Source of the DNA: Nocardia arthritidis
GTDB lineage: Bacteria; Actinomycetota; Actinomycetes; Mycobacteriales; Mycobacteriaceae
Direction of reading: 5' to 3'
Assembly (NCBI RefSeq): GCF_011801145.1
Contig: NZ_CP046172.1
Span: 9,052,001-9,116,000 of the forward strand
Length of the DNA: 64,000 nucleotides
This document shows, piece after piece, positions 1-11,333 of the stretch. Numbering within the stretch: the stretch's first letter is position 1; the number at the start of each line of letters is the position of its first letter. The translations under genes and the position numbers were made by a program. A model generated the notes under the pieces. The model was given only the letters and a program-made list of their open reading frames with translations. It ran no database searches and was not told where the DNA came from.

Positions 1-19
1 CGAGGGGAGACTTGCCCAT
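1..19 (-). CDS. 5' end of an unidentified gene (partial)
   Basis: On the minus strand an ATG at 19 is preceded by a GGAGGA ribosome binding site (complement of 23-28). The frame reads M-G-K-S-P-L before leaving the window. Six residues do not allow identification. The spacing between the Shine-Dalgarno and ATG is short, so the call rests only on that pairing. Confidence 0.35.
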
Positions 20-152
20 GGTTCCTCCGAATTCTCCGATGGGTACTGCGCAGCTCACGACCCGGCCCGGGACCGGTTGCTACACGTTAATCGGCGCCAT
101 CCGCGGTCGGTAAAGGGCCACCGACTCCCCGCCGGGTATCGCCGATTTGCTC

Positions 153-158
153 TACCCT
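153..158 (+). promoter_or_regulatory. -10 box of a leaderless promoter
   Basis: TACCCT lies 6 nt before the ATG at 165. This matches the actinobacterial TANNNT -10 box and would start transcription at or next to the start codon. No Shine-Dalgarno is visible. It supports the ATG at 165 over the upstream TTG at 147. Confidence 0.5.
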
Positions 159-164
159 GGCGTC

Positions 165-767
165 ATGCGCCCCGCAGCTGTCGCGATCCTCGCGGCTGTC
201 CTACCGCTGGCGGCATGTGGCTCATCGACCACCTCCCCATCGAGTGCGCCGCCGACCACACCCACCGCGACGAACCTGCCCGCCACCGGTGGGCCATCGG
301 TGACCATCACCAATCCCACCCCGGTGACCCCGACCCCATCCGATGTACCCGCCTGTGCGACAGACGATCTCACGGTGACGGCCGGTCGCGGATCGGGAGC
401 GGCCGGACATATCTACACGCAGCTGGTCTTCACGAATTCGGGCAAGGCCGCCTGCACGCTCTTCGGCTATCCGGGCGTCTCGCTGGCCACCGGATCGCCG
501 CCCGCGACGATCGGCCCCGGTGCGGAACGGGATACCAACAGCGGCAGCCCGCAATTGGTCACCCTCGCCCCCGGCGCCGCCGCCGAGACCACCGTCCGCT
601 ACGCCCAGGCGGGCAACTTCGACTGCACGCGCACCCCCGCCCAGTTCCTGTTGATCTACCCGCCCAACCAAACCGCGTCCACCACAGTGCCTTTCAACGC
701 GGACGCCTGCACGAACCCGCCGATCGCCCTACTCCAGGTCGGCTTCGTGAAGCCGAGCGGCCAGTAG
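165..767 (+). CDS. DUF4232-type secreted lipoprotein
   Basis: A 200-residue exported protein of unknown function. Residues 1-18 form a lipoprotein signal peptide ending in the lipobox LAAC, so Cys18 should be lipidated and the protein anchored outside the cytoplasmic membrane. A Ser/Thr/Pro-rich linker (about 20-65) leads to a beta-rich domain with the DUF4232 pattern: a stretch beginning LTVTAGRGSGAAGH, the motif CTLFGYPGVS, and a second conserved cysteine in FNADACTNPP near the C-terminus. It is a single gene that converges on the minus-strand fusA2. The family is widespread in actinomycetes and usually lies near envelope genes, but nothing here shows a specific role. Confidence 0.8.
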   Translation: MRPAAVAILAAVLPLAACGSSTTSPSSAPPTTPTATNLPATGGPSVTITNPTPVTPTPSDVPACATDDLTVTAGRGSGAAGHIYTQLVFTNSGKAACTLFGYPGVSLATGSPPATIGPGAERDTNSGSPQLVTLAPGAAAETTVRYAQAGNFDCTRTPAQFLLIYPPNQTASTTVPFNADACTNPPIALLQVGFVKPSGQ

Positions 768-838
768 CCGTTCGACGGCCGCCGAGCCGGAACCCGGTCG
801 GTACCAAACCCTTTCGGCTCGATACCGACCGGGCGGAT

Positions 839-2935
839 TCAGCTCGCCTTGCCGATGATCGTCCGCTGCACCTCGGCCGGAACCGCGGCGTACGAGTCGA
901 ACACCATTGTGTAGCTCGCCCGGCCCTGCGTCCTGGACCGCAGATCACCGATATAGCCGAACATCTCGGCCAGCGGGACCAGCGCCTCGACGACGCGAGC
1001 GCCCGCGCGTTCGGCCATGGCATGGATCTGGCCGCGGCGGGCACTCAGATCACCCATCACCTCGCCGAGGTAGCGCTCCGGCGTCACCACCTCGACCCGC
1101 ATGATCGGTTCCAGCAGTACGGGATTCGCCTTCGTCATCGCATCACGGACGGCATGCGCCGCCGCGGTCCGGAACGCGAGATCGGACGAATCCTTCACGT
1201 GCGCGGCGCCATCGAGCAGCACCACCCGAAGATTAACCACCGGATAGCCTGCCAGCACGCCGCTCTGCATGGCGTCCTGTGCGCCCGCGTCGACCGCGGG
1301 GAGGTACTCCCGCGGCACCCGTCCGCCGGACACCCGGCTCTCGAACTCGTAGATCGCGCCATCGTCGCCGACGAACGGTTCCACCGCGAGCACCACCTTG
1401 GCGAACTGACCCGAACCGCCGTGCTGCTTGCGCAGGGTGAATTCGAGCCGTCGCACCGGACGGGTGATGGTCTCGCGGTAGGCCACCCGCGGCTTACCGA
1501 CATTGGCGGCGACATCGAATTCGCGACGCAGCCGATCCACCATGATCTCGAGCATGAGCTCGCCCATACCGCCGATCACGGTCTGGCCGGTCTCCGGATC
1601 CTGCCGCACCGAGAACGTCGGATCCTCCTCGGCCAGCAGCCGGATCGCGGTACCCAGCTTGTCCTGATCGGAGCGGGTCCTCGGCTCGATCGCGACCTCG
1701 ATCACCGGTTCGGGGAAGGTCATGGCCTCCAGCACGATCTGATGCTGCGGATCGCACAGGGTGTCACCGGTCGTGGTGTCCTTCAGGCCGATCGCGGCAC
1801 AGATATGCCCGGCCCGCGCCTCCTCGATCGGGTACTCCTTGTTCGAGTGCATCTGAAACAGCTTGCCCAGCCGCTCCTTTCGCCCCTTGGTCGAGTTGAG
1901 AACCGCCGAACCCGATGCCGCGCACCCGGAGTACACCCGCAAATAGGTGAGCTTGCCGAAGAACGGATGCACCGCGACCTTGAAGGCCAGCGCCGCGAAC
2001 GGTTCCGCCGCACTCGCCGCGCGATGCACCACGGTCTGCTCCTGCCCCGGCAGGTGGCCGTAGGCGCCGCCGCCGTCCAAAGGCGAAGGCAGATAGTCGA
2101 TTATCGCGTCGAGCAGGGGCTGAACACCCTTGTTCTTGAACGCCGAACCGCACAGCACCGGATAGCCCGCCGACGCGACGGTCACCCGGCGCACCGCGGC
2201 CTTCAACTCCGCGACCGACGGGGCCACACCGGCGACGAATGTCTCCAGCAGCGCCTCATCCGATGTCGCGACGAGTTCGACCAGCGCCTCGCGATACCGT
2301 TCGGCTTGCGCACGCAACCCGTCCGGAATCGGCGCCATCCGATAGCGGATGCCATGGCCGGTGTCGCCATCCCAGATCTTCGCCGTCATCTCGATCAGGT
2401 CGACAATGCCGGTGAAGCTGTCCTCGACGCCGATCGGCAGTTGCAGCACAAGCGGTTTCGCGCCCAACCGCTCCTCGATCGACCGCACCGTGCCAAAGAA
2501 ATCCGCGCCGAGCTTGTCCATCTTGTTCACGAAACAGATGCGCGGCACGTCGTACCGGTCCGCCTGCCGCCACACCTGCTCCGACTGCGGCTCCACCCCC
2601 TCCTTGCCGTCGAATACCGCGACCGCACCGTCGAGCACCCGCAGCGACCGCTCCACCTCCACGGTGAAGTCGACATGCCCGGGTGTGTCGATGATGTTGA
2701 TCTGGTGGTTGTTCCAGAAACAGGTGGTCGCGGCCGAGGCGATGGTGATGCCGTGCTCCTGCTCCTGCGGCATCCGATCCATCACGGCGGTGCCGTCGTG
2801 CACCTCACCGATCTTGTAGGTGACACCGGTATAGAACAGGATCCGCTCGGTGGTTGTCGTCTTACCGGCATCGATATGCGCCATGATCCCGATATCGCGT
2901 ACCAGGTTCAGGTCGGCCAGCATTGCGCGCGTCAT
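839..2935 (-). CDS. fusA2: Second elongation factor G (EF-G paralogue)
   Basis: A 698-residue GTPase of the EF-G family, full length. EF-G drives tRNA-mRNA translocation and, with RRF, ribosome recycling. The G motifs are intact: AHIDAGKT (P-loop, about 19-26), [12 protein letters not shown] and GSAFKNKG. Domain IV ([15 protein letters not shown]) and the C-terminal [10 protein letters not shown] segment are present. By eye it is roughly 70% identical to the fusA product at 7408-9510. The switch I Arg of ERGITI is His61 here (EHGITI), which is unusual. ATG at 2935 aligns with the other copy; an open upstream extension has no homology. It lies downstream of tuf2 on the same strand, reversing the usual fusA-tuf order. 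Codon bias is weaker than in fusA (more GAT, GAA, CGA), suggesting lower expression. Backup, stress-related or antibiotic-tolerant roles are all possible. Confidence 0.93.
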
Positions 2936-3158
2936 GAGAAATCCACTCCAGCAACGAGTTCCGTCGATTACGACACTCGCCGAGCTGTTGCGTCCCGCCG
3001 ACGGCACGAGCATCATGCGCGGCGCGAGCGGCGCCGCCGATGCCCTATCGGTGAGACCGCTTCTTACCGCGCTCGCGGATGTGCTGGAAACATGCCCCCA
3101 TGTCTACCGACTACCAACCGACTTGTCGACCGAAAATCGGAATACGCGAAAGATCAAA

Positions 3159-3186
3159 CGGCGCCGGGCATTTCGCCGCGACGCCG
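3159..3186 (-). terminator. Terminator of tuf2, related to the tuf terminator
   Basis: An imperfect GC hairpin just downstream of tuf2 on the minus strand, followed by a T-containing stretch. Its flanks (acggcgccg..tttcg..cgacgccgtt) match the terminator of tuf at 6051-6078 and the copy at 5412-5439, suggesting the terminator was duplicated together with the tuf gene and then diverged. Confidence 0.55.
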
Positions 3187-3193
3187 TTCGGCC

Positions 3194-4384
3194 TCATTTC
3201 AGAATCTTGGTGACCCGTCCGGCGCCGACGGTGCGCCCGCCCTCACGAATCGCGAAACGCAAACCCTCCTCCATCGCGATCGGCTGGATCAGCTGGACGG
3301 TCATCTGGGTATTGTCGCCGGGCATCACCATCTCGGTGTCCTTCGGCAGCGTCACCACACCGGTCACATCGGTCGTCCGGAAGTAGAACTGCGGCCGGTA
3401 GTTATTGAAGAACGGGGTATGTCTGCCGCCCTCATCCTTGGACAGGATGTACACCTGACCCTCGAATTCGGTGTGCGGCGTAATGGATCCCGGCTTCACC
3501 ACCACCTGGCCACGCTCCACATCCTCCCGTCGGATACCGCGCAGCAGCAGGCCGACGGCATCGCCCGCCTGACCCTGATCCAGCAGCTTGTGGAACATCT
3601 CGATCCCGGTGACATGGGTCTTCATCCGCTTTTCCCGCATGCCGACGATCTCCACCTCCTCGTTCACCTTGATCACCCCGCGCTCGACGCGGCCGGTGAC
3701 CACGGTGCCGCGGCCGGTGATGGTGACGACGTCCTCGATCGGCATCAGGAAGGGTTTATCCGTCTCGCGCTCCGGCTCCGGAATCGATTCGTCGACGGCG
3801 TCGAGCAGTTGCTCGATCGACCGGATCCAGTCCGGATCCCCTTCCAGCGCTTTGAGTCCCGAGACCCGCACCACGGGAGCGTCCTCGTCGAACTCCTGCG
3901 CGGCCAACAGCTCCCGCACCTCCAGTTCGACCAGTTCCAGGATCTCCTCGTCATCCACCATGTCGGCCTTGTTCAACGCGACCAGGATGTAGGGCACGCC
4001 GACCTGGCGGGCGAGCAACACATGTTCCCGGGTCTGCGGCATCGGGCCGTCGGTGGCCGCCACCACCAGAATCGCGCCGTCCATCTGTGCGGCACCGGTG
4101 ATCATATTCTTCACGTAATCGGCATGCCCCGGCGCATCGACGTGCGCGTAATGTCTACGGGCCGTTTGATATTCGACATGCGCGATATTGATCGTGATGC
4201 CTCGTGCCTTTTCCTCCGGCGCCTTATCGATCGCGTCGAACGGGGACATCGCATTGAGATTCGGATACTTCTCCGCCAGAACCTTGGTGATTGCCGCGGT
4301 CAGCGTCGTCTTGCCGTGGTCAACATGACCGATGGTGCCGATGTTGACGTGAGGCTTCGTCCGATCGAACTTCGCCTTCGCCAC
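3194..4384 (-). CDS. tuf2: Second elongation factor Tu (EF-Tu paralogue)
   Basis: A 396-residue EF-Tu, which delivers aminoacyl-tRNA to the ribosome. G1 GHVDHGKT (19-26), G3 DAPGHAD and G4 NKAD are intact, as are domains II and III. Aligned by hand with the tuf product (6101-7291), 47 of 396 residues differ (about 88% identity). The differences cluster near residues 46-51, around [13 protein letters not shown] and in the REKRMKTHV segment of domain II. Gln of LLARQVG and the Gly of ERGQ, positions tied to elfamycin resistance in other EF-Tus, are unchanged. The start is GTG at 4384 with GGAGGGG seven nt upstream; an in-frame extension to 4447 lacks homology. fusA2 follows 258 nt downstream. 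Codon bias is weaker than in tuf. Confidence 0.95.
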
Positions 4385-4489
4385 AGTGCAGCCCCTCCCT
4401 GGACTCGCCGGAATATCTGTAGCGAGGGCCCCAGCGGATTCGGGCACCCAACGGAACCCTCACAGCGACCATAACCCCCAAACCCCCGC

Positions 4490-4876
4490 CTACCCCCACT
4501 TTTCAAACTCCCCACCCGGATCGCTAATCGGTAATTTTGGATGACCCGTTCCGGCATGAACAATCCACACTGTCCGCTGCACATCGTCGATCAAGTACCA
4601 GATGCGGCCGCCACCGGTCACCTCGTATTGCCACTGTTCGAGGGTGTTGCCCTTCCAAATCATGGAGGCCAGCTGTCCCTTGAGCCGGTGCTGGCGATCC
4701 GGATTCGTCGTCGCCCTCGGCGACGCGCGGATAGCGTCGTAGGCGCGATGCAGATTGCCCGGCGCCTGCTTGGCCAGATGCTCCCATCCGGCGCAGGAAT
4801 CCGTTGTAGCCAAACGTATTTCGAATTCATCTCCAATCGCGGGCGGAGCGGCCCGATCCCCTCGCTTCGGACTCAT
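4490..4876 (-). CDS. RelE/ParE-superfamily toxin-like protein
   Basis: A 128-residue protein with the layout of an actinobacterial RelE/HigB-like toxin: an N-terminal helical half, then a basic strand region RQHRLKGQL, a conserved WQYEVTGGGRIWYLIDD block and a C-terminal HAGTGHPK motif. Toxins of this superfamily are ribosome-dependent mRNA endonucleases or gyrase inhibitors; which applies here cannot be read from the sequence. Its start overlaps the end of the upstream gene by four bases (ATGA), typical of a toxin translated after its antitoxin. It sits between tuf2 and a PIN-like pair. The family assignment rests on motif resemblance only. Confidence 0.5.
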   Translation of the reverse strand: MSPKRGDRAAPPAIGDEFEIRLATTDSCAGWEHLAKQAPGNLHRAYDAIRASPRATTNPDRQHRLKGQLASMIWKGNTLEQWQYEVTGGGRIWYLIDDVQRTVWIVHAGTGHPKLPISDPGGEFEKWG

Positions 4877-5355
4877 CGATCCACGTCCCCCGATTCCGGA
4901 ATAGGGGCGGGTCCGAAATCTCCCTCAGGTTCACGGCTGAGCAACTCCCGAAGCGCCGGGTCGGCATAGACCTCGGCACTGTGCCGCCACTGCGCCAGCA
5001 GGGTAGCGACCGGAGCCAGATTCTCCAGTGCAGCTGCACCCTGTGTCACCGCAACCAATTCGGTAAGGAACAGTTCGAAATCACCCGCCGGAAGAAAAGT
5101 CACCCATGGAACCGCATCGGGCAGCGCCTCGCGCACTCCATCCATGCCGAATCGCCGCACGATACTGGCGAGCAGCCGCGCCGTGAAATCGACGACGACA
5201 CCCTCCGCATCAAGTTGCTCCACCCGCATCAGCGCCAGATCACCGGCATCCCGCCGACGCAGCCGCAGCGCCCGAACGCGATCCAGCAGTCCAGCGGTAA
5301 CAGCAGGCCGGTGCAGCAGATCGCTGAACGGAACAACATCGTAGGCAAAGCTCAT
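4873..5355 (-). CDS. Probable antitoxin partner of the RelE-like protein
   Basis: A 160-residue soluble protein I do not recognise with certainty. It has an N-terminal segment FAYDVVPFSDLLHRP and a basic helix RALRLRRRDAGDLALMRV that recalls the Phd-like antitoxins found beside this kind of toxin in actinomycetes, followed by a mostly helical acidic C-terminal half. It precedes the toxin-like gene with an ATGA overlap, the expected antitoxin-first order. The chosen ATG at 5355 has no Shine-Dalgarno but lies 7 nt after TAGTGT, suggesting a leaderless message; a GTG at 5364 is the alternative start. Confidence 0.5.
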   Translation of the reverse strand: MSFAYDVVPFSDLLHRPAVTAGLLDRVRALRLRRRDAGDLALMRVEQLDAEGVVVDFTARLLASIVRRFGMDGVREALPDAVPWVTFLPAGDFELFLTELVAVTQGAAALENLAPVATLLAQWRHSAEVYADPALRELLSREPEGDFGPAPIPESGDVDR

Positions 5356-5362
5356 AACATCC

Positions 5363-5368
5363 ACACTA
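5363..5368 (-). promoter_or_regulatory. -10 box for the antitoxin/toxin pair (leaderless)
   Basis: TAGTGT on the minus strand ends 7 nt before the ATG at 5355, the spacing seen at other leaderless genes of this window. The pair would therefore have its own promoter, independent of the str operon. Confidence 0.45.
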
Positions 5369-5401
5369 CCTTGGATGTCCGCCCACTCGATACCCCTCCC
5401 A

Positions 5402-5463
5402 AAACGCGAAACGGCGCCGCCCCTTTCGGAGCGACGCCGTTCGGCTCAGTGATTCAGCGAATC
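5402..5463. repeat. 62-bp direct repeat carrying a tuf-type terminator (copy A)
   Basis: Matches 6041-6102 at 59 of 62 positions in the same orientation. The two copies bracket the DUF433/PIN-like gene pair. Copy A contains the last codons and stop of the PIN-like gene plus a terminator hairpin; copy B contains the first stop-codon bases and terminator of tuf. The arrangement suggests insertion of the pair by recombination at, or duplication of, the tuf 3' end. Confidence 0.9.
5412..5439 (-). terminator. Terminator after the PIN-like toxin gene
   Basis: Twelve-pair stem (two G-U pairs on the minus strand) with a GAAA tetraloop, followed by TTTCGCGTTT. It is part of repeat copy A and nearly identical to the tuf terminator. 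Confidence 0.75.
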
Positions 5464-5789
5464 TCGACTATCGTTTCGCCAGCCTGCAGCATCTCCACTA
5501 CCGTCGGCAGCACCGGTAGAAATGCATCCAACAGTGCCCGCCGAGTGCAATTGCCGATCCTTATCCACACGACGGCGGGACCAGGTTCACCGGATCGGCC
5601 CTTCCCGATAAGGATGAAATCCTCGTCCTTGGTGACGATGACGGCGTCGCGCCGCAGAGCCTCTTGCCACACTTGGTGGTCCGGTGCCGACGTCAGATCG
5701 ATGTCACAGACATGCACAGCATCATGCCCATGGTCTGCGAGAGCTCGCGCCAGTGCCGGTGGCAATTGCGCGTCGACGAGGAATCTCAA
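5454..5789 (-). CDS. DUF5615 PIN-like toxin
   Basis: A 111-residue protein with the fold signature of the PIN-like DUF5615 family: MRFLVDAQLPP at the N-terminus (first acidic active-site residue), GHDAVHV, then VIVTKDEDF carrying further conserved acidic residues, and a strand WIRIGNCTR. PIN-domain proteins are metal-dependent RNases; VapC-type toxins cut tRNA or rRNA. It is paired with the DUF433 gene, the usual antitoxin for this family, by a four-base overlap: its TTG start at 5789 overlaps the upstream TGA. The last residues and stop lie inside the 62-bp repeat, so its original C-terminus may have been replaced on insertion. Confidence 0.8.
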   Translation of the reverse strand: MRFLVDAQLPPALARALADHGHDAVHVCDIDLTSAPDHQVWQEALRRDAVIVTKDEDFILIGKGRSGEPGPAVVWIRIGNCTRRALLDAFLPVLPTVVEMLQAGETIVEIR

Positions 5790-6004
5790 GAGGCCGTCCG
5801 CAGGATCGGATGATCGATCTCAGCAGCGGCGAACTCCAGGCAGGCGCGGATATCCTCGCGCTCGAGGTACGGGTAATCGGCGAGGATCGAATCCTCGGTC
5901 TCTCCTGCGGCCAGGAGTTCGAGCACGTCTTTTACCCGGATCCGCATACCGCGGATACAGGGGCGACCTCCGCATTGGTTCGGGTCGAACGTAATCCTGG
6001 ACAC
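5786..6004 (-). CDS. DUF433 antitoxin
   Basis: A 72-residue DUF433 protein, a small winged-helix-like DNA-binding family that pairs with DUF5615 toxins. Conserved features are the GGRPCIRGMRIRV stretch, LELLAAGE, and ILADYPYLEREDI. It should neutralise the PIN-like product and repress the pair. The start is GTG at 6004; it has no clear ribosome binding site, but TATGCT lies 6 nt upstream, so the message is probably leaderless. The gene begins 97 nt beyond the tuf stop codon. Confidence 0.8.
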   Translation of the reverse strand: MSRITFDPNQCGGRPCIRGMRIRVKDVLELLAAGETEDSILADYPYLEREDIRACLEFAAAEIDHPILRTAS

Positions 6005-6010
6005 CTGGCA

Positions 6011-6016
6011 AGCATA
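6011..6016 (-). promoter_or_regulatory. -10 box for the DUF433/PIN-like pair (leaderless)
   Basis: TATGCT on the minus strand, 6 nt before the GTG at 6004. It lies between the tuf terminator and the antitoxin, giving the pair its own promoter. Confidence 0.45.
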
Positions 6017-6040
6017 CCGGTCGCGGTGCGCCGGTCCCCG

Positions 6041-6100
6041 AAACGCGAAACGGCGCCGCTCCTTTCGGAGCGACGCCGTTCAGCTCAGCGATTCAGCGAA

Positions 6101-6102
<2 letters not shown>
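6041..6102. repeat. 62-bp direct repeat at the 3' end of tuf (copy B)
   Basis: The partner of 5402-5463, with three mismatches. It starts at the tuf stop codon and spans the tuf terminator. Being attached to the conserved tuf gene, it is the likely parental copy. Confidence 0.9.
6051..6078 (-). terminator. Terminator of tuf (end of the str operon)
   Basis: Twelve-pair GC stem with one G-U pair and a GAAA loop, followed by TTTCGCGTTT on the minus strand, about 23 nt after the tuf stop. Confidence 0.85.
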
Positions 6103-7291
<1,189 letters not shown>

Positions 7292-7373
7292 TTGTTGTCC
7301 TCCTGGACTTGTTGGTGCGTGCAGTTGCAGCAGTGCGATTTTTACTTACGGGGGGTCGTGCAGACTCCCGGCT

Positions 7374-7403
7374 ATTGAGGCAAGTGTGACATCTTGCCTC
7401 AAT
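7374..7403. other. Inverted repeat between fusA and tuf
   Basis: Perfect 11-bp arms (attgaggcaag / cttgcctcaat) around an 8-nt loop, four bases past the fusA stop. It lacks a T tract, so it is more likely an mRNA-processing, stability or partial-termination element that lets tuf be expressed differently from fusA, or a protein-binding palindrome. Confidence 0.6.
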
Positions 7404-7407
7404 TGAA

Positions 7408-9510
7408 TTACTCGCCGGTCGCCTTGGCGATGATCTCCTTCGACACGTTGGCCGGAACCTCCGCGTACGAGTCGAACACCATGGAGAAGTTCGCCCGGCC
7501 CTGGGTCTTCGACCGCAGGTCACCGATGTAACCGAACATCTCCGAGAGCGGAACCAGCGCCTTGACGACACGGGCACCACTGCGTTCCTCCATGGCCTGG
7601 ATCTGACCACGGCGGGAGTTCAGGTCGCCGATCACTTCGCCCATGTAGTCCTCGGGCGTGGTGACCTCGACGGCCATGAGCGGCTCGAGGATCACCGGAC
7701 CGGCCTTGCGGGCCGCTTCCTTGAGGGCCTGCGCACCCGCGATCTTGAACGCCATTTCCGAGGAGTCGACCTCGTGGTAGGCGCCGTCGAGCAGGGCGGC
7801 CTTCAGGTTGACCAGCGGGTAACCGGCGAGGACACCGTACTGCATGGCGTCCTGGATGCCCGCGTCGACCGAGGGGATGTACTCCCTCGGCACGCGACCG
7901 CCGGTGACCTTGTTCTCGAACTCGTAGGTCGCGCCGTCCTCGCCCTTGAACGGTTCCAGGGCGATGATGACGCGCGCGAACTGGCCCGAGCCACCCGTCT
8001 GCTTCTTGTGGGTGTACTCGTGCTTCTCGACCGCCTTGGTGATGGTCTCGCGGTACGCGACCTGCGGCTTGCCGATGTTGGCCTCGACCTTGAACTCGCG
8101 CTTCATCCGGTCGACGTAGATGTCGAGCTGGAGCTCGCCCATGCCACCGATGACGGTCTGGCCGGTCTCCTGATCCAGCTTCACGTTGAAGGTGGGGTCC
8201 TCCTCCGCGAACTTCTGGATGGCGGTGCCCAGCTTCTCCTGGTCGGCCTTGGTCTTCGGCTCGATCGCGACCTCGATGACCGGGTCCGGGAAGGTCATGG
8301 ACTCCAGCACGATCTGGTTGTTCGGATCGCACAGGGTGTCACCGGTGGTGGTGTCCTTCAGGCCGATGACCGCGTAGATGTGGCCGGCCTGCGCCTCGGT
8401 GACCGGGTTCTCCTTGTTGGAGTGCATCTGGAACAGCTTGCCCAGCCGCTCCTTACGCCCCTTGGTGGAGTTGATGACCTGGGCGCCGGAGTCGACCTTG
8501 CCCGAGTACACGCGAACGTAGGTCAGCTTGCCGAAGAACGGGTGCGTCGCGACCTTGAACGCGAGCGCCGCGAAGGGCTCGGAAATGCTCGCGTCGCGGT
8601 GGATGATCTCGTCTTCCTTGCCCGGCACGTGGCCGTCGGCGCCGCCGTCGTCCAGCGGGGTCGGCAGGTAGTCGATCACGGCGTCGAGCATGGGCTGCAC
8701 GCCCTTGTTCTTGAACGCCGAACCGCACAGCACCGGGTAGAGCTCGGAGTTGACGGTCATCTTGCGGATGGCGCCCTTGATCTCCTCGATCGAGAGCTCC
8801 TCGCCGCCGAAGAACTTCTCCAGCAGCGCCTCATCCGATTCGGCGACGGTCTCCAGCAGTTCCTGGCGGTACTGCTCGGCCCGCTCCTTCAGATCGGCCG
8901 GGATCTCGACGACCTCGTACTGCTCGCCGAGCTTGGTCTCGCCCCGCCAGACCTTGGCATTCATCTCGACCAGGTCGACGATGCCCTCGAAGGTGTCCTC
9001 CGCGCCGATCGGCAGCTGGATGACCAGCGGCTTGGCGCCGAGGCGATCCTTGATGGTCTGCACGGTGAAGTAGAAGTCGGCACCCAGCTTGTCCATCTTG
9101 TTGACGAAGCAGATGCGCGGGACGTCGTACTTGTCGGCCTGCCGCCAGACCTGCTCGGACTGCGGCTCGACACCTTCCTTGCCGTCGAAGACGGCGACGG
9201 CACCATCGAGCACGCGCAGCGAACGCTCCACCTCGACGGTGAAGTCGACGTGCCCGGGGGTGTCGATGATGTTGATCTGGTTGTCATTCCAGTAGCAGGT
9301 GGTCGCGGCCGACGTGATCGTGATACCGCGTTCCTGCTCCTGCGCCATCCAGTCCATGGTGGCCGCGCCGTCATGGACCTCACCGATCTTGTAGGTGATG
9401 CCGGTGTAGAAGAGGATGCGTTCGGTTGTCGTGGTCTTACCGGCATCGATGTGGGCCATGATGCCGATGTTGCGGACCTTGTTCAGGTCGGTGAGCACGT
9501 CCTGTGCCAC
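7408..9510 (-). CDS. fusA: Elongation factor G
   Basis: The housekeeping 700-residue EF-G, the translocase of the ribosome. The P-loop AHIDAGKT, switch [22 protein letters not shown] and domain [17 protein letters not shown] are standard, as are the C-terminal [16 protein letters not shown] residues. The start is GTG at 9510, matching family length. Codon bias is strong. It lies third in the str operon, with a 150-nt gap after rpsG that holds a hairpin. Confidence 0.98.
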
Positions 9511-9592
9511 GGAAATCTTCCCGTCTCGTAGCTAGTTGGGATCTTCGGGTACGAGACCCGGTGTCCGGGTCATCACTATGTCAACGCCGGAA

Positions 9593-9610
9593 GTGGCACC
9601 GCAGTGCCAC
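9593..9610. other. Hairpin in the rpsG-fusA gap
   Basis: GTGGCAC and GTGCCAC form a 7-bp stem around CGCA. It is within the transcribed str operon leader of fusA; no T tract follows. It could be a processing or regulatory structure. Confidence 0.4.
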
Positions 9611-9660
9611 ACCGACTGACTGCCTGCCGGCGCCGACGTGAGTGACGGGCCGGACGGCAA

Positions 9661-10131
9661 TCACCAGCGGTAGTGCGCGAAGGCCCGGTTCGACTCGGCC
9701 ATCTTGTGGGTGTCCTCGCGACGCTTCACCGAAGCGCCGAGGCCGTTGCTGGCGTCCAGCAGTTCGTTCGCCAGACGCTCGACCATGGTCTTTTCCCGAC
9801 GGGCGCGGGCGAAGTTGACCAGCCAGCGCAGCGCCAGGGTGTTGGCGCGGCCCGGCCGAACCTCGACCGGAACCTGGTAGGTGGCGCCACCGACGCGGCG
9901 GGGCTTCACCTCGAGGGAGGGCTTGACGTTGTCCAGCGCACGCTTGAGCGTCACGACCGGATCGGTGCCGGTCTTCTCGCGCGCCTGCTCCATCGCGCCG
10001 TAGACGATGCGCTCAGCGGTCGACTTCTTGCCGTCGAGCAGGATCTTGTTGACCAGCTGGGTGACCAGCGGCGACCCGTAGACCGGGTCGTTGATCAACG
10101 GACGTTTGGGTGCGGGGCCCTTGCGCGGCAT
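9661..10131 (-). CDS. rpsG: 30S ribosomal protein S7
   Basis: A 156-residue S7, the primary binder of the 3' domain of 16S rRNA and organiser of the 30S head. It begins [10 protein letters not shown] and contains the conserved [27 protein letters not shown] and [12 protein letters not shown] segments; full length. Its ATG at 10131 follows the rpsL stop by one base, indicating translational coupling. In other bacteria S7 (or S4/S8-type partners) can autoregulate its operon; no such site can be proven here. Confidence 0.98.
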
Positions 10132-10132
10132 A

Positions 10133-10507
10133 TCAGCTCTTCTCCTTCTTGGCGCCGTAGCGGCTGCGGGCCTGCTTGCGGTTCTTCACTCCCTGGGTGT
10201 CGAGCGAGCCACGGATGATCTTGTAGCGCACACCGGGGAGGTCCTTCACACGACCGCCACGCACGAGCACCATCGAGTGCTCCTGCAGGTTGTGGCCTTC
10301 GCCCGGGATGTAAGCCGTGACCTCGACCGCGCTGGTCAGGCGAACACGCGCGACCTTACGCAGCGCGGAGTTCGGCTTCTTCGGGGTCGTGGTGTACACG
10401 CGGGTGCACACGCCACGACGCTGCGGGCTCCCCTTCAGGGCCGCAGTCTTGGTCTTGGCGACCTTGTCGCGGCGACCCTTGCGGACCAGCTGGTTGATGG
10501 TTGGCAT
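10133..10507 (-). CDS. rpsL: 30S ribosomal protein S12
   Basis: A 124-residue S12, part of the decoding centre. The decoding loops read [13 protein letters not shown] and [15 protein letters not shown], so the lysines equivalent to Lys43 and Lys88 are present; changes there give streptomycin resistance, so this is the sensitive form. First gene of the str operon. The ATG at 10507 is preceded by the aaggaaag element of the leader. Confidence 0.98.
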
Positions 10508-10778
10508 AGACCGGCTTTCCTTATTAGTTAACGCGGTGTCTGGAACTTCATGTCTTTGTCATCGAGCGTTGGCTCGCACGTCCGTCCACGTTTCTCGCGT
10601 CCCGAGGTCGGGCGTGTCGTACGAGAAACCTAGCCCTTTTTCTGGGCATGCCGGAGAGGTCAGCCGCTCTCGCTGGCCTACATTTCCGCACGAACTTGCC
10701 CGCATGCTTCCGGGCACAGCGATCCACGATACCCGTGGCCACGACGGAGGGTCAAAGCGGGGGTGCTGCGATACCGGC
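10508..10778 (-). promoter_or_regulatory. str operon leader with a possible -10 box
   Basis: This 271-nt gap upstream of rpsL holds no gene. On the minus strand TAGGTT (complement of 10627-10632) fits the TANNNT -10 consensus and would give an approximately 120-nt leader; I see no convincing -35. The stretch between is unstructured apart from short GC pairs. Confidence 0.35.
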
Positions 10779-11333
10779 TCACCTGGCCAGATTCAGGGTC
10801 AGCTCGGTGAGCTTGCGCGCGGCGGCACACGGGTCGGGATGCGCGGAGCCCGCGCGATAGTTGATCCACCAGCCGACGATGCCGGTATCCGGCGCGGCGG
10901 CGCTGATCCCACACGAATCCGGATCGTTGGGCCGCAGCGTCTGCAACCCGAGACTCTCGCCGAAGTTGACGTTCGTGGTGCTGTAGCCCAGCCGGTCGTT
11001 GTTGGCCTTCTCATTGGTGAGCGAACCGAGCTCGTACCAGTTCAGCGTTGCCATGGCATTGCCGCCCGGCGCGCCCTGCACCTCCCACATGCACACCGCA
11101 CCGTAGAAGGTCGGCTGGGCGTAGGAGCCCTTGCCGCCGACGATATCGCCGATCTGATCCATGGCCACCGCATCGCATTCGCGCAACAGCTTGTCGAATT
11201 TGGTGTTCACCGAATCGCTCGACCCCGCGGCCTGGGGATTCCCATTGATGGTCCGGCCGCAGCCGCCCGCCGAGACCGCGACCGTCAACAATGCGGCCGC
11301 GACGAGGGCACAGCGCTTCCCGCGCATCATCAT
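10779..11333 (-). CDS. DUF3558 lipoprotein
   Basis: A 184-residue secreted lipoprotein of the DUF3558 family, function unknown. The signal peptide ends in SAGGC, placing the lipidated cysteine near residue 25. The mature part shows the family pattern: LLRECDAV, a second cysteine in GAVCMWEV, and further cysteines in DSCGISAA and PDPCAAARKL. The first of three consecutive ATGs (11333) has GGGGAG five nt upstream. It follows a second DUF3558 gene after 10 nt, so the two are co-transcribed. The domain resembles the extracellular parts of the kinases at 18817-22616. Confidence 0.8.
   Translation of the reverse strand: MMMRGKRCALVAAALLTVAVSAGGCGRTINGNPQAAGSSDSVNTKFDKLLRECDAVAMDQIGDIVGGKGSYAQPTFYGAVCMWEVQGAPGGNAMATLNWYELGSLTNEKANNDRLGYSTTNVNFGESLGLQTLRPNDPDSCGISAAAPDTGIVGWWINYRAGSAHPDPCAAARKLTELTLNLAR

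Follow-up and report, generated by a model that had tools for sequence, protein, structure and literature searches.

Str-linked paralogs of EF-Tu and EF-G in Nocardia arthritidis as candidate conditional elongation factors altered at normally invariant sites

Why does an actinomycete keep a second EF-Tu and a second EF-G beside the operon that already encodes both elongation GTPases? The question is raised by a 64,000-nucleotide stretch of the Nocardia arthritidis genome (NZ_CP046172.1; hereafter the window), in which two genes, tuf2 (EF-Tu2) and fusA2 (EF-G2), lie downstream of the str operon. An original prediction, made from the sequence alone, had read the two genes as a specialized set for conditions in which the main factors are blocked. 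Our own reading, which we hold tentatively as nearly but not quite probable, is that tuf2 and fusA2 are intact, selectively kept paralogs and that EF-G2 may be produced in response to ribosomes stalling on a short open reading frame (ORF) in its leader, thereby sustaining translocation while the main factors are hindered. A literature search of partial coverage yielded no description of a str-linked second EF-G family in Nocardia, of its leader, or of its fixed changes at tRNA sites.

Both genes are complete. EF-Tu2 differs from the main EF-Tu at exactly 47 of 396 residues (88.1% identity), the very count given in the original prediction, and it retains three domains with a complete GTP-binding domain. 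EF-G2 is a five-domain EF-G by its Pfam domains and shares 73.5% identity with the main EF-G, close to the 70% formerly estimated by eye; the longest ORF at fusA2 reaches 3016, beyond the likely start. In the 10.01 Mb genome, these are the sole close extra copies of tuf and fusA, the next EF-G relative being 32% identical and the next EF-Tu-like matches 36-39%. The minus-strand order is rpsL-rpsG-fusA-tuf, four small ORFs (4490..6004), and then tuf2-fusA2, which agrees with the predicted position. The codon bias of the second copies is indeed weaker, with codon adaptation indices of 0.48 and 0.52 for tuf2 and fusA2 versus 0.83 and 0.80 for tuf and fusA, and 0.23-0.50 for five other local genes; the high values of tuf and fusA are partly circular because the four str genes themselves formed the reference set.

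At E ≤ 1e-150, a second EF-G is encoded in 47 of 148 genomes of the genus, including that of the window, and identity separates these copies into 27 of the fusA2 type (61-80% identical to main fusA) and 20 of a divergent type, here called D (49-53% identical to fusA2). Among the other 26 fusA2 genomes, 24 carry the gene on the contig of the main fusA, with a gap of at most ~15 kb, and two (G014 and G032) carry it on another contig; D copies share the main-fusA contig in 9 of 20 genomes, at 238-307 kb in eight and 1.25 Mb in one. In a wider family sample of 401 genomes from 31 genera, 30 of them sister genera, a second EF-G match at E ≤ 1e-250, a threshold that a D-type copy would fail, was found in 7 of 52 genomes inside the genus and in none of 349 outside it (8 of which gave no match at all). 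Genes of the tuf2 type (89% identical) are much rarer, occurring in 3 of 150 genomes (that of the window, G053, and G115), and no further genome among 148 has two EF-Tu matches at ≥ 85% identity. Presence in all Nocardia, which would have spoken against a specialized role, is thus refuted (27/148 and 3/150), and a conditional set is still the best reading of the locus; the spare EF-G is likely conditional and is present in roughly one fifth of the Nocardia genomes examined. As an observation on other EF-Tu copies, each of the 14 genomes with an EF-Tu of 75-80% identity (T2) encodes a D-type EF-G too, either on another contig or at a great distance, among 48 searched genomes that were picked mostly for their second EF-G, which biases this co-occurrence; G126, with three EF-Tu matches and one EF-G match, may be an exception.

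The pairing of the two genes, by contrast with what had been proposed, is not a rule. All three tuf2 genomes carry fusA2, whereas only 3 of the 27 fusA2 genomes have tuf2 and 23 lack it; the remaining one, G032 (85% complete), yielded no EF-Tu gene of any kind. We reject duplication of the whole operon on three grounds: 23 or more of the 27 fusA2 genomes are without tuf2, the two genes are separated by a hairpin, and the conserved leader belongs to fusA2 alone. The hairpin just after tuf2 reaches -31.7 kcal/mol over 71 nt (z -2.4), and 4 of 200 shuffles are equally stable. The tuf2-fusA2 order that had been described as reversed is real, but it is not a mirrored copy of the operon, since in G053 and G115 tuf2 follows tuf and fusA2 lies ~6-7 kb further on in opposite orientation, and since fusA2 is more widespread and has a conserved upstream region of its own, with tuf2 an occasional neighbor. 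The two genes are therefore not one duplicated unit.

Trees of both families, which the original prediction had called for, place tuf2 in its own clade and set fusA2 and D apart from all main fusA. The EF-G tree, built by a quick method from 78 of 157 rows, has one branch of support 100 with 27 fusA2 and 6 D copies on one side and all 45 main fusA (25 from Nocardia, 20 from others) on the other; D is nested within fusA2 on a long branch. A single origin of the fusA2 group is favored, not proven; its branching is ladder-like with long branches, and therefore gene conversion or rate differences are possible. The strong divergence from EF-G I that characterizes EFG II is not seen in EF-G2, which is 73% identical to main fusA and lies nearest to fusA copies in this tree, where EFG II had no row. 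The EF-Tu tree (56 of 114 rows) unites the three tuf2 in one clade (100/99) beside the main tuf of Mycobacteriales, groups four T2 copies with Streptomyces tuf, and leaves two copies of 62-64% identity (T3) far off. Pairwise ratios of nonsynonymous to synonymous substitution rates (dN/dS) are 0.05-0.09 for tuf2 and 0.11-0.24 for fusA2, the main copies giving 0.12-0.27 (tuf) and 0.11-0.18 (fusA); dS is as high as 1.0 in some pairs, which makes the ratios rough, but all lie far below 1. Both genes are under purifying selection. This evidence bears on the possibility that the copies serve dosage or are neutral duplicates heading for loss, to which the patchy distribution, the weaker codon bias, and leader-like remnants in two genomes without the gene would lend some color; we regard it as very unlikely, given purifying selection, invariant-site substitutions fixed in every copy examined, and a leader in every copy. 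In a separate observation, the aligned stretch of 8 of the 20 D-type EF-G matches has one in-frame stop, for which a pseudogene and an alignment overrun are both possible.

Apart from a conservative E7D in EF-Tu2, the only changes at otherwise invariant sites that are fixed in all copies examined are Val575 in EF-G2 and F220V with N276A in EF-Tu2. In EF-G2, the GTP-binding residues checked (Thermus positions 20, 21, 24, 25, 62, 63, 83, 84, 86, and 87) are all kept, and so is the catalytic His of domain IV loop II (Tth H573) in 27/27 fusA2 copies. The GTPase motifs are intact to this extent, as had been stated, the departure being at Arg61, before the Gly-Ile-Thr of switch I, which is His in the EF-G2 of the window and, over the 27 copies, His in 22, Lys in 2, and Arg in 3. 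Two residues past H573, at the tip of domain IV, Val575 (Thermus numbering) is invariant in 124/124 reference EF-Gs and is replaced in every fusA2 copy by Gln (18), Arg (5), or Lys (4); no other site with an invariance of 97% or more in the references is altered in all fusA2 copies, and the D copies have Lys (4) or Val (2) at 575. Among the best 120 EF-G database matches, 13 have a changed V575, one of them being the protein of the window or a 99% copy of it; the same 13 have a changed R61 (12 His, 1 Lys), and the other 107 have neither change. Position 572 is Ala or Val in 27/27 fusA2 copies, which is weaker evidence because this position is variable outside fusA2. Domain IV loop II of EF-G meets the tRNA-mRNA. 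By numbering, we take the V575 site to be E. coli 585 or 586, at the edge of a segment comprising residues 585-610. In E. coli, H583 is a key catalytic residue, and residues 585-610 of domain IV hold a cluster of substitutions that slow translocation on drug-bound ribosomes and confer aminoglycoside resistance (PMC12572303); those variants differ from EF-G2 in being mutations of a single EF-G, with no second gene.

For EF-Tu, 105 distinct references define 213 sites that are at least 97% invariant, three of which (E7D, F220V, and N276A) are altered in all three tuf2 copies; F220 and N276 are invariant in 105/105. By the numbering map used here, these two residues correspond to E. coli F219 and N274 (Met1 counted), and the letters of main tuf match that map at 6/6 positions of the amino-acid pocket and at 12/12 contact positions of the inhibitor GE2270A. 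EF-Tu2 thus lacks the canonical amino-acid pocket: of H67, E216, D217, F219, T229, and N274, it has Val and Ala in place of F219 and N274 and keeps the other four, and the chance that at least two of three changes fall in this six-residue pocket is low (hypergeometric P 0.002). In the best 120 of 7999 EF-Tu matches from ~5.8 billion proteins, the Val-Ala combination occurs in 11 (that of the window included) and Phe-Asn in 109, with no mixed case; all 11 Val-Ala proteins also have H257 and H265, and R265H is found in 16/105 reference EF-Tus as well. The original prediction had reported the elfamycin-linked Gln and Gly positions as unchanged, which agrees with our observations (the local motifs are identical, and G260 and G278 are kept), but F220V, N276A, T257H, and R265H, in or beside the aminoacyl/GE2270A pocket, had been overlooked, as had the fixed tip change of EF-G2 and the conserved fusA2 leader. 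Both paralogs are altered at normally fixed sites that are known or likely to touch tRNA.

The pocket in question is familiar from engineering. F219 and N274 are two of the six pocket residues randomized to make EF-Sep, and EF-pY and E216A/D217A are further EF-Tu variants of the same pocket (PMC6386890). The changes of EF-Tu2 differ in being natural and fixed in a clade, and the combination F219V + N274A is absent from the part of that review's table that we consulted. If functional, the Val-Ala pocket of EF-Tu2 would probe, in a living cell, how much alteration the universal amino-acid pocket tolerates, the question that the engineered mutants pose in the laboratory (PMC6386890).

The same residues invite an explanation by drug resistance through target duplication, with EF-Tu2 insensitive to GE2270A or pulvomycin and EF-G2 to a translocation inhibitor. 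Of the 12 listed GE2270A contacts (PMC8183687), N273 and R262 differ between EF-Tu2 and main tuf (N273A and R262H), so a drug-site reading of EF-Tu2 is possible; it is less specific, as R262H occurs in normal EF-Tus too, and just one of the three fixed changes at invariant sites falls on a contact of GE2270A (P 0.12). Additionally, the two distant T3 copies, which we take to be EF-Tu3, alter the pocket by D218N and F220L. Streptomyces EF-Tu3 (actEFTu2) is described as stress-expressed, less active, and GE2270A-resistant (PMC12309360), and it resembles tuf2 as a second actinobacterial EF-Tu with pocket changes in T3 copies; the difference is that T3 genes are 62-64% identical and dispersed, whereas tuf2 is 88% identical to main tuf, str-linked, and in a separate Val-Ala clade far from the two T3 rows. 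On the EF-G side, His458 of the fusidic-acid pocket is kept in 25/26 fusA2 copies besides that of the window, and a PF14028 search found no cluster for an EF-Tu-class thiopeptide beside tuf2/fusA2. Taken together, target duplication seems to us unlikely. As a separate observation on the fusidic-acid pocket, at H457/L461 (S. aureus numbering) the main EF-G of this genome has Q/Y, as do 3 of 43 other Nocardia main EF-Gs, and EF-G2 has M/M; H457Q/Y are among the common resistance substitutions (PMC12493156).

A narrower version, in which the strain protects itself from an antibiotic of its own making, could draw on a thiopeptide-like cluster ~430 kb away. A precursor-like ORF there (G000:C1:8631926-8632159, plus strand, outside the window) ends in SCTTCECSCSCSS and is flanked by two stand-alone PF14028 proteins ~14 kb apart. 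The core presumably resembles the ribosome-targeting class of the nosiheptide/nocathiacin type. It is without the Asn of EF-Tu-targeting thiopeptides (criterion from PMC7136475), and the other two tuf2 genomes are outside the 19 of 148 that have PF14028, so self-resistance to an EF-Tu-class thiopeptide is unsupported, and we consider the general proposal extremely unlikely. In Planobispora rosea, tufR, a gene for a resistant EF-Tu, is associated with a thiopeptide cluster and sits with rpsL, rpsG, fusA, and further ribosomal genes (PMC3943966); it lies shortly downstream of the GE2270 cluster, whereas tuf2 is a supernumerary copy whose genome has its only PF14028 sites ~420 kb away.

The strongest sign that EF-G2 may be conditionally expressed is the conserved leader of its gene. 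The upstream regions of the 27 fusA2 genes can be aligned over ~150 nt even though the proteins diverge to ~65% identity, and 8-mers are common to up to 23 of the 27 upstream sequences versus at most 6 in 50 mononucleotide shuffles. The leader comprises a -10-like box whose G-T-A is invariant in 27/27, an ATG 7 nt after it, and, in many but not all aligned rows, a -35-like TCGACA ~17-18 nt before it. From this ATG, all 27 loci have a short upstream ORF (uORF) of 9-10 codons in the same frame, with the consensus M-[VFI]-[TPL]-x-x-P-[QRH]-[SARP]-R-(x)-stop and an in-frame stop, which is codon 10 in 11 copies and codon 11 in 16; its sole length change is one whole codon. The strict pattern is present in 27/27 fusA2 upstream regions and in none of those of 44 Nocardia main fusA, 80 other main fusA, and 6 D genes. 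A short upstream ORF of conserved position and frame, as in a leader-peptide attenuator, is thus found at every fusA2.

Furthermore, the leader and fusA2 are linked one to one. A covariance model of the leader (R1) gave 27 strong sites in the 148 genomes (E ≤ 8.2e-21), one per fusA2 genome and all upstream of fusA2, and, in the 401 family genomes at E ≤ 1e-4, seven sites in exactly the seven fusA2 genomes; both searches ran stricter filters, able to lose weak sites. The genome of the window has a single match (E 3.4e-22), its sequence having been in the model-building set. Three weaker sites also appeared among the 148 genomes (E 5.3e-8, 7.8e-4, and 9.2e-4). Two of them, in G125 and G045, lie ~1 kb downstream of tuf and on its strand in genomes without fusA2; tblastn nearby recognized no piece of fusA2, and in G125 the uORF stop is lost and the second half of the leader is unrecognizable by eye. 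They look like leader remnants after loss of fusA2. The third (G116:C354:78664-78758, E 7.8e-4) is a minor observation, its genome lacking fusA2 and its surroundings showing no EF-G remnant. An Rfam scan of window positions 1-11000 at E ≤ 1 returned only an unrelated sRNA model (E 0.035), below its gathering score.

D-type genes have a leader of another kind. Six of the 20 were examined (L154, L155, L156, L157, L164, and L165), and all have a different, longer leader ORF of ~30-32 codons sharing the C-terminus RFEVILVSSP...RLRGRY, its start being ambiguous in some; R-L-R is a macrolide-arrest motif. Another EF-G type of the genus thus likewise carries a conserved leader ORF, an independent hint.

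These features suggest how EF-G2 could work. Transcription would likely start at or near the uORF ATG, because the -10-like box sits 7 nt upstream of it; ribosomes stalling on the uORF would alter the conserved leader and raise fusA2 expression, and EF-G2, with Gln, Lys, or Arg at 575 and mostly His at 61, would move tRNA-mRNA on hindered ribosomes. In genomes that also have tuf2, EF-Tu2 would bring aminoacyl-tRNA to the ribosome in a pocket with two of its side chains reduced in size, and would thereby bind pocket-directed inhibitors or unusual aminoacyl groups differently. EF-G2 would then most likely be a stall-induced alternative translocase and EF-Tu2 its rarer partner with altered substrate or drug contacts. 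A precedent in mechanism for such control is FusB of Staphylococcus aureus, where fusidic-acid-stalled ribosomes on a leader switch on an EF-G-rescuing protein (PMC12493156, PMC12008383); the Nocardia leader would be induced in a comparable way, and FusB is itself no EF-G. A stress-specific actinomycete pair of actEFTu2 and spdEFG2 has also been suggested as a speculation (PMC4342817), involving distinct older subfamilies, whereas fusA2 is a duplicate seen only in the genus Nocardia.

Several results weigh against this mechanism. EF-Tu2 is missing in 23 or more of the 27 fusA2 genomes, and inspection of three loci by eye showed no convincing leader ORF before tuf2. Simple unmasking of the ribosome-binding site was not supported: folding gave a mean unpaired probability at the fusA2 site of 0.35 with the uORF region, 0.39 without it, and 0.35 with that region shuffled, and the value was higher without the uORF region in 17 of 27 loci. 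Covariation is weak, RNAalifold on the leader alignment finding 0 double changes. Three hand-drawn helices pair in 93.6% of cells versus 21-56% in slid controls. They include 3 pairs that show double changes, but this number is equaled in 169 of 500 shuffles and the 6 cells in 10 of 500, and a slid control outscores the helices in covariation. The stability of the window leader is ordinary (z -1.3, 19 of 200 shuffles being as stable), and a consensus promoter scan made no call at the -35/-10-like site. Peptide-level selection on the uORF is likewise not evident because its base differences are spread evenly over the codon positions (383, 309, and 340). Conservation of the leader and its exclusive linkage to fusA2 are firm observations, and attenuation would be one way to account for them.

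The uORF could instead sense amino-acid shortage or the stringent state through its Pro and Arg codons, with the spare factors serving slow translation in stationary phase, as suggested for Streptomyces tuf3. Pro6 (CCG) and Arg9 (CGG) are indeed invariant in 27/27 uORFs, but they are the only invariant codons besides the start, whereas classical attenuators use runs of one codon, and the invariant bases coincide with a CCGC/GCGG hairpin and are equally readable as such. We consider a starvation set unlikely, about as much so as target duplication.

A bolder possibility, which we hold to be quite unlikely, is that EF-Tu2 offers an open amino-acid pocket for mischarged or bulky aminoacyl-tRNAs, that EF-G2 is its matching translocase with a recharged tip, and that both would form a second elongation mode under a leaderless nine-codon ORF. 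Extra tRNAs as a sign of a new code were sought and rejected: the tuf2 genomes have 57, 56, and 69 tRNA matches versus 48-68 in 21 others, the 69 being highest by one only; this compares numbers of matches, with at most 132 candidates considered in several genomes. If the preferred reading of EF-G2 as a stall-induced translocase is true, Nocardia would have an inducible alternative translocase and sometimes an alternative EF-Tu, and the changes of both proteins would mark tRNA-contact sites exploitable by elongation inhibitors.

The features of the locus are collected in Table 1.

Table 1. Features at the tuf2-fusA2 locus and the adjacent str operon (window positions)
Feature	Position	Strand	Basis or remark
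fusA2, second EF-G (EF-G2), 698 aa, ATG start, all EF-G domains	839..2935	-	Pfam, identity to fusA; V575K and R61H (Thermus numbering)
Conserved leader of fusA2 (match of model R1)	2970..3107	-	Alignment of 27 loci; R1 model
Leader ORF (uORF) MFPAHPRAR*	3064..3093	-	ATG 158 nt upstream of fusA2 start
-10-like TAGACA	3101..3106	-	7 nt before uORF ATG; would make uORF leaderless
-35-like TCGACA	3124..3129	-	17 nt upstream of -10 box; read from sequence
Hairpin just after tuf2, terminator-like, without long U run, between tuf2 and fusA2	3155..3190	-	Folding
tuf2, second EF-Tu (EF-Tu2), 396 aa, GTG start	3194..4384	-	Pocket changes F220V, N276A
Small ORF between tuf and tuf2, 128 aa, no Pfam match	4490..4876	-	
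Small ORF, 163 aa, DUF6247 match under curated cut-off	4873..5364	-	
DUF5615 PIN-like protein (toxin-like)	5454..5789	-	Pfam
DUF433 protein, antitoxin-like partner of PIN-like protein	5786..6004	-	Pfam
Main tuf	6101..7291	-	
Main fusA	7408..9510	-	
rpsG (9661..10131) and rpsL (10133..10507), str operon	9661..10507	-	ORFs; names from operon context

Among the small ORFs, the PIN-like/DUF433 pair was considered as a co-toxin explanation for the spare factors and rejected. L132 has homologs of the pair between tuf and fusA2, L139 has them after tuf, and the pair looks like an older neighbor because it stands beside tuf in genomes where fusA2 has different positions. Finally, in G115 a 94-aa ORF between tuf2 and tuf (L126:13921-14205, minus strand) clusters with elongation factors and by eye resembles EF-Tu domain 2.

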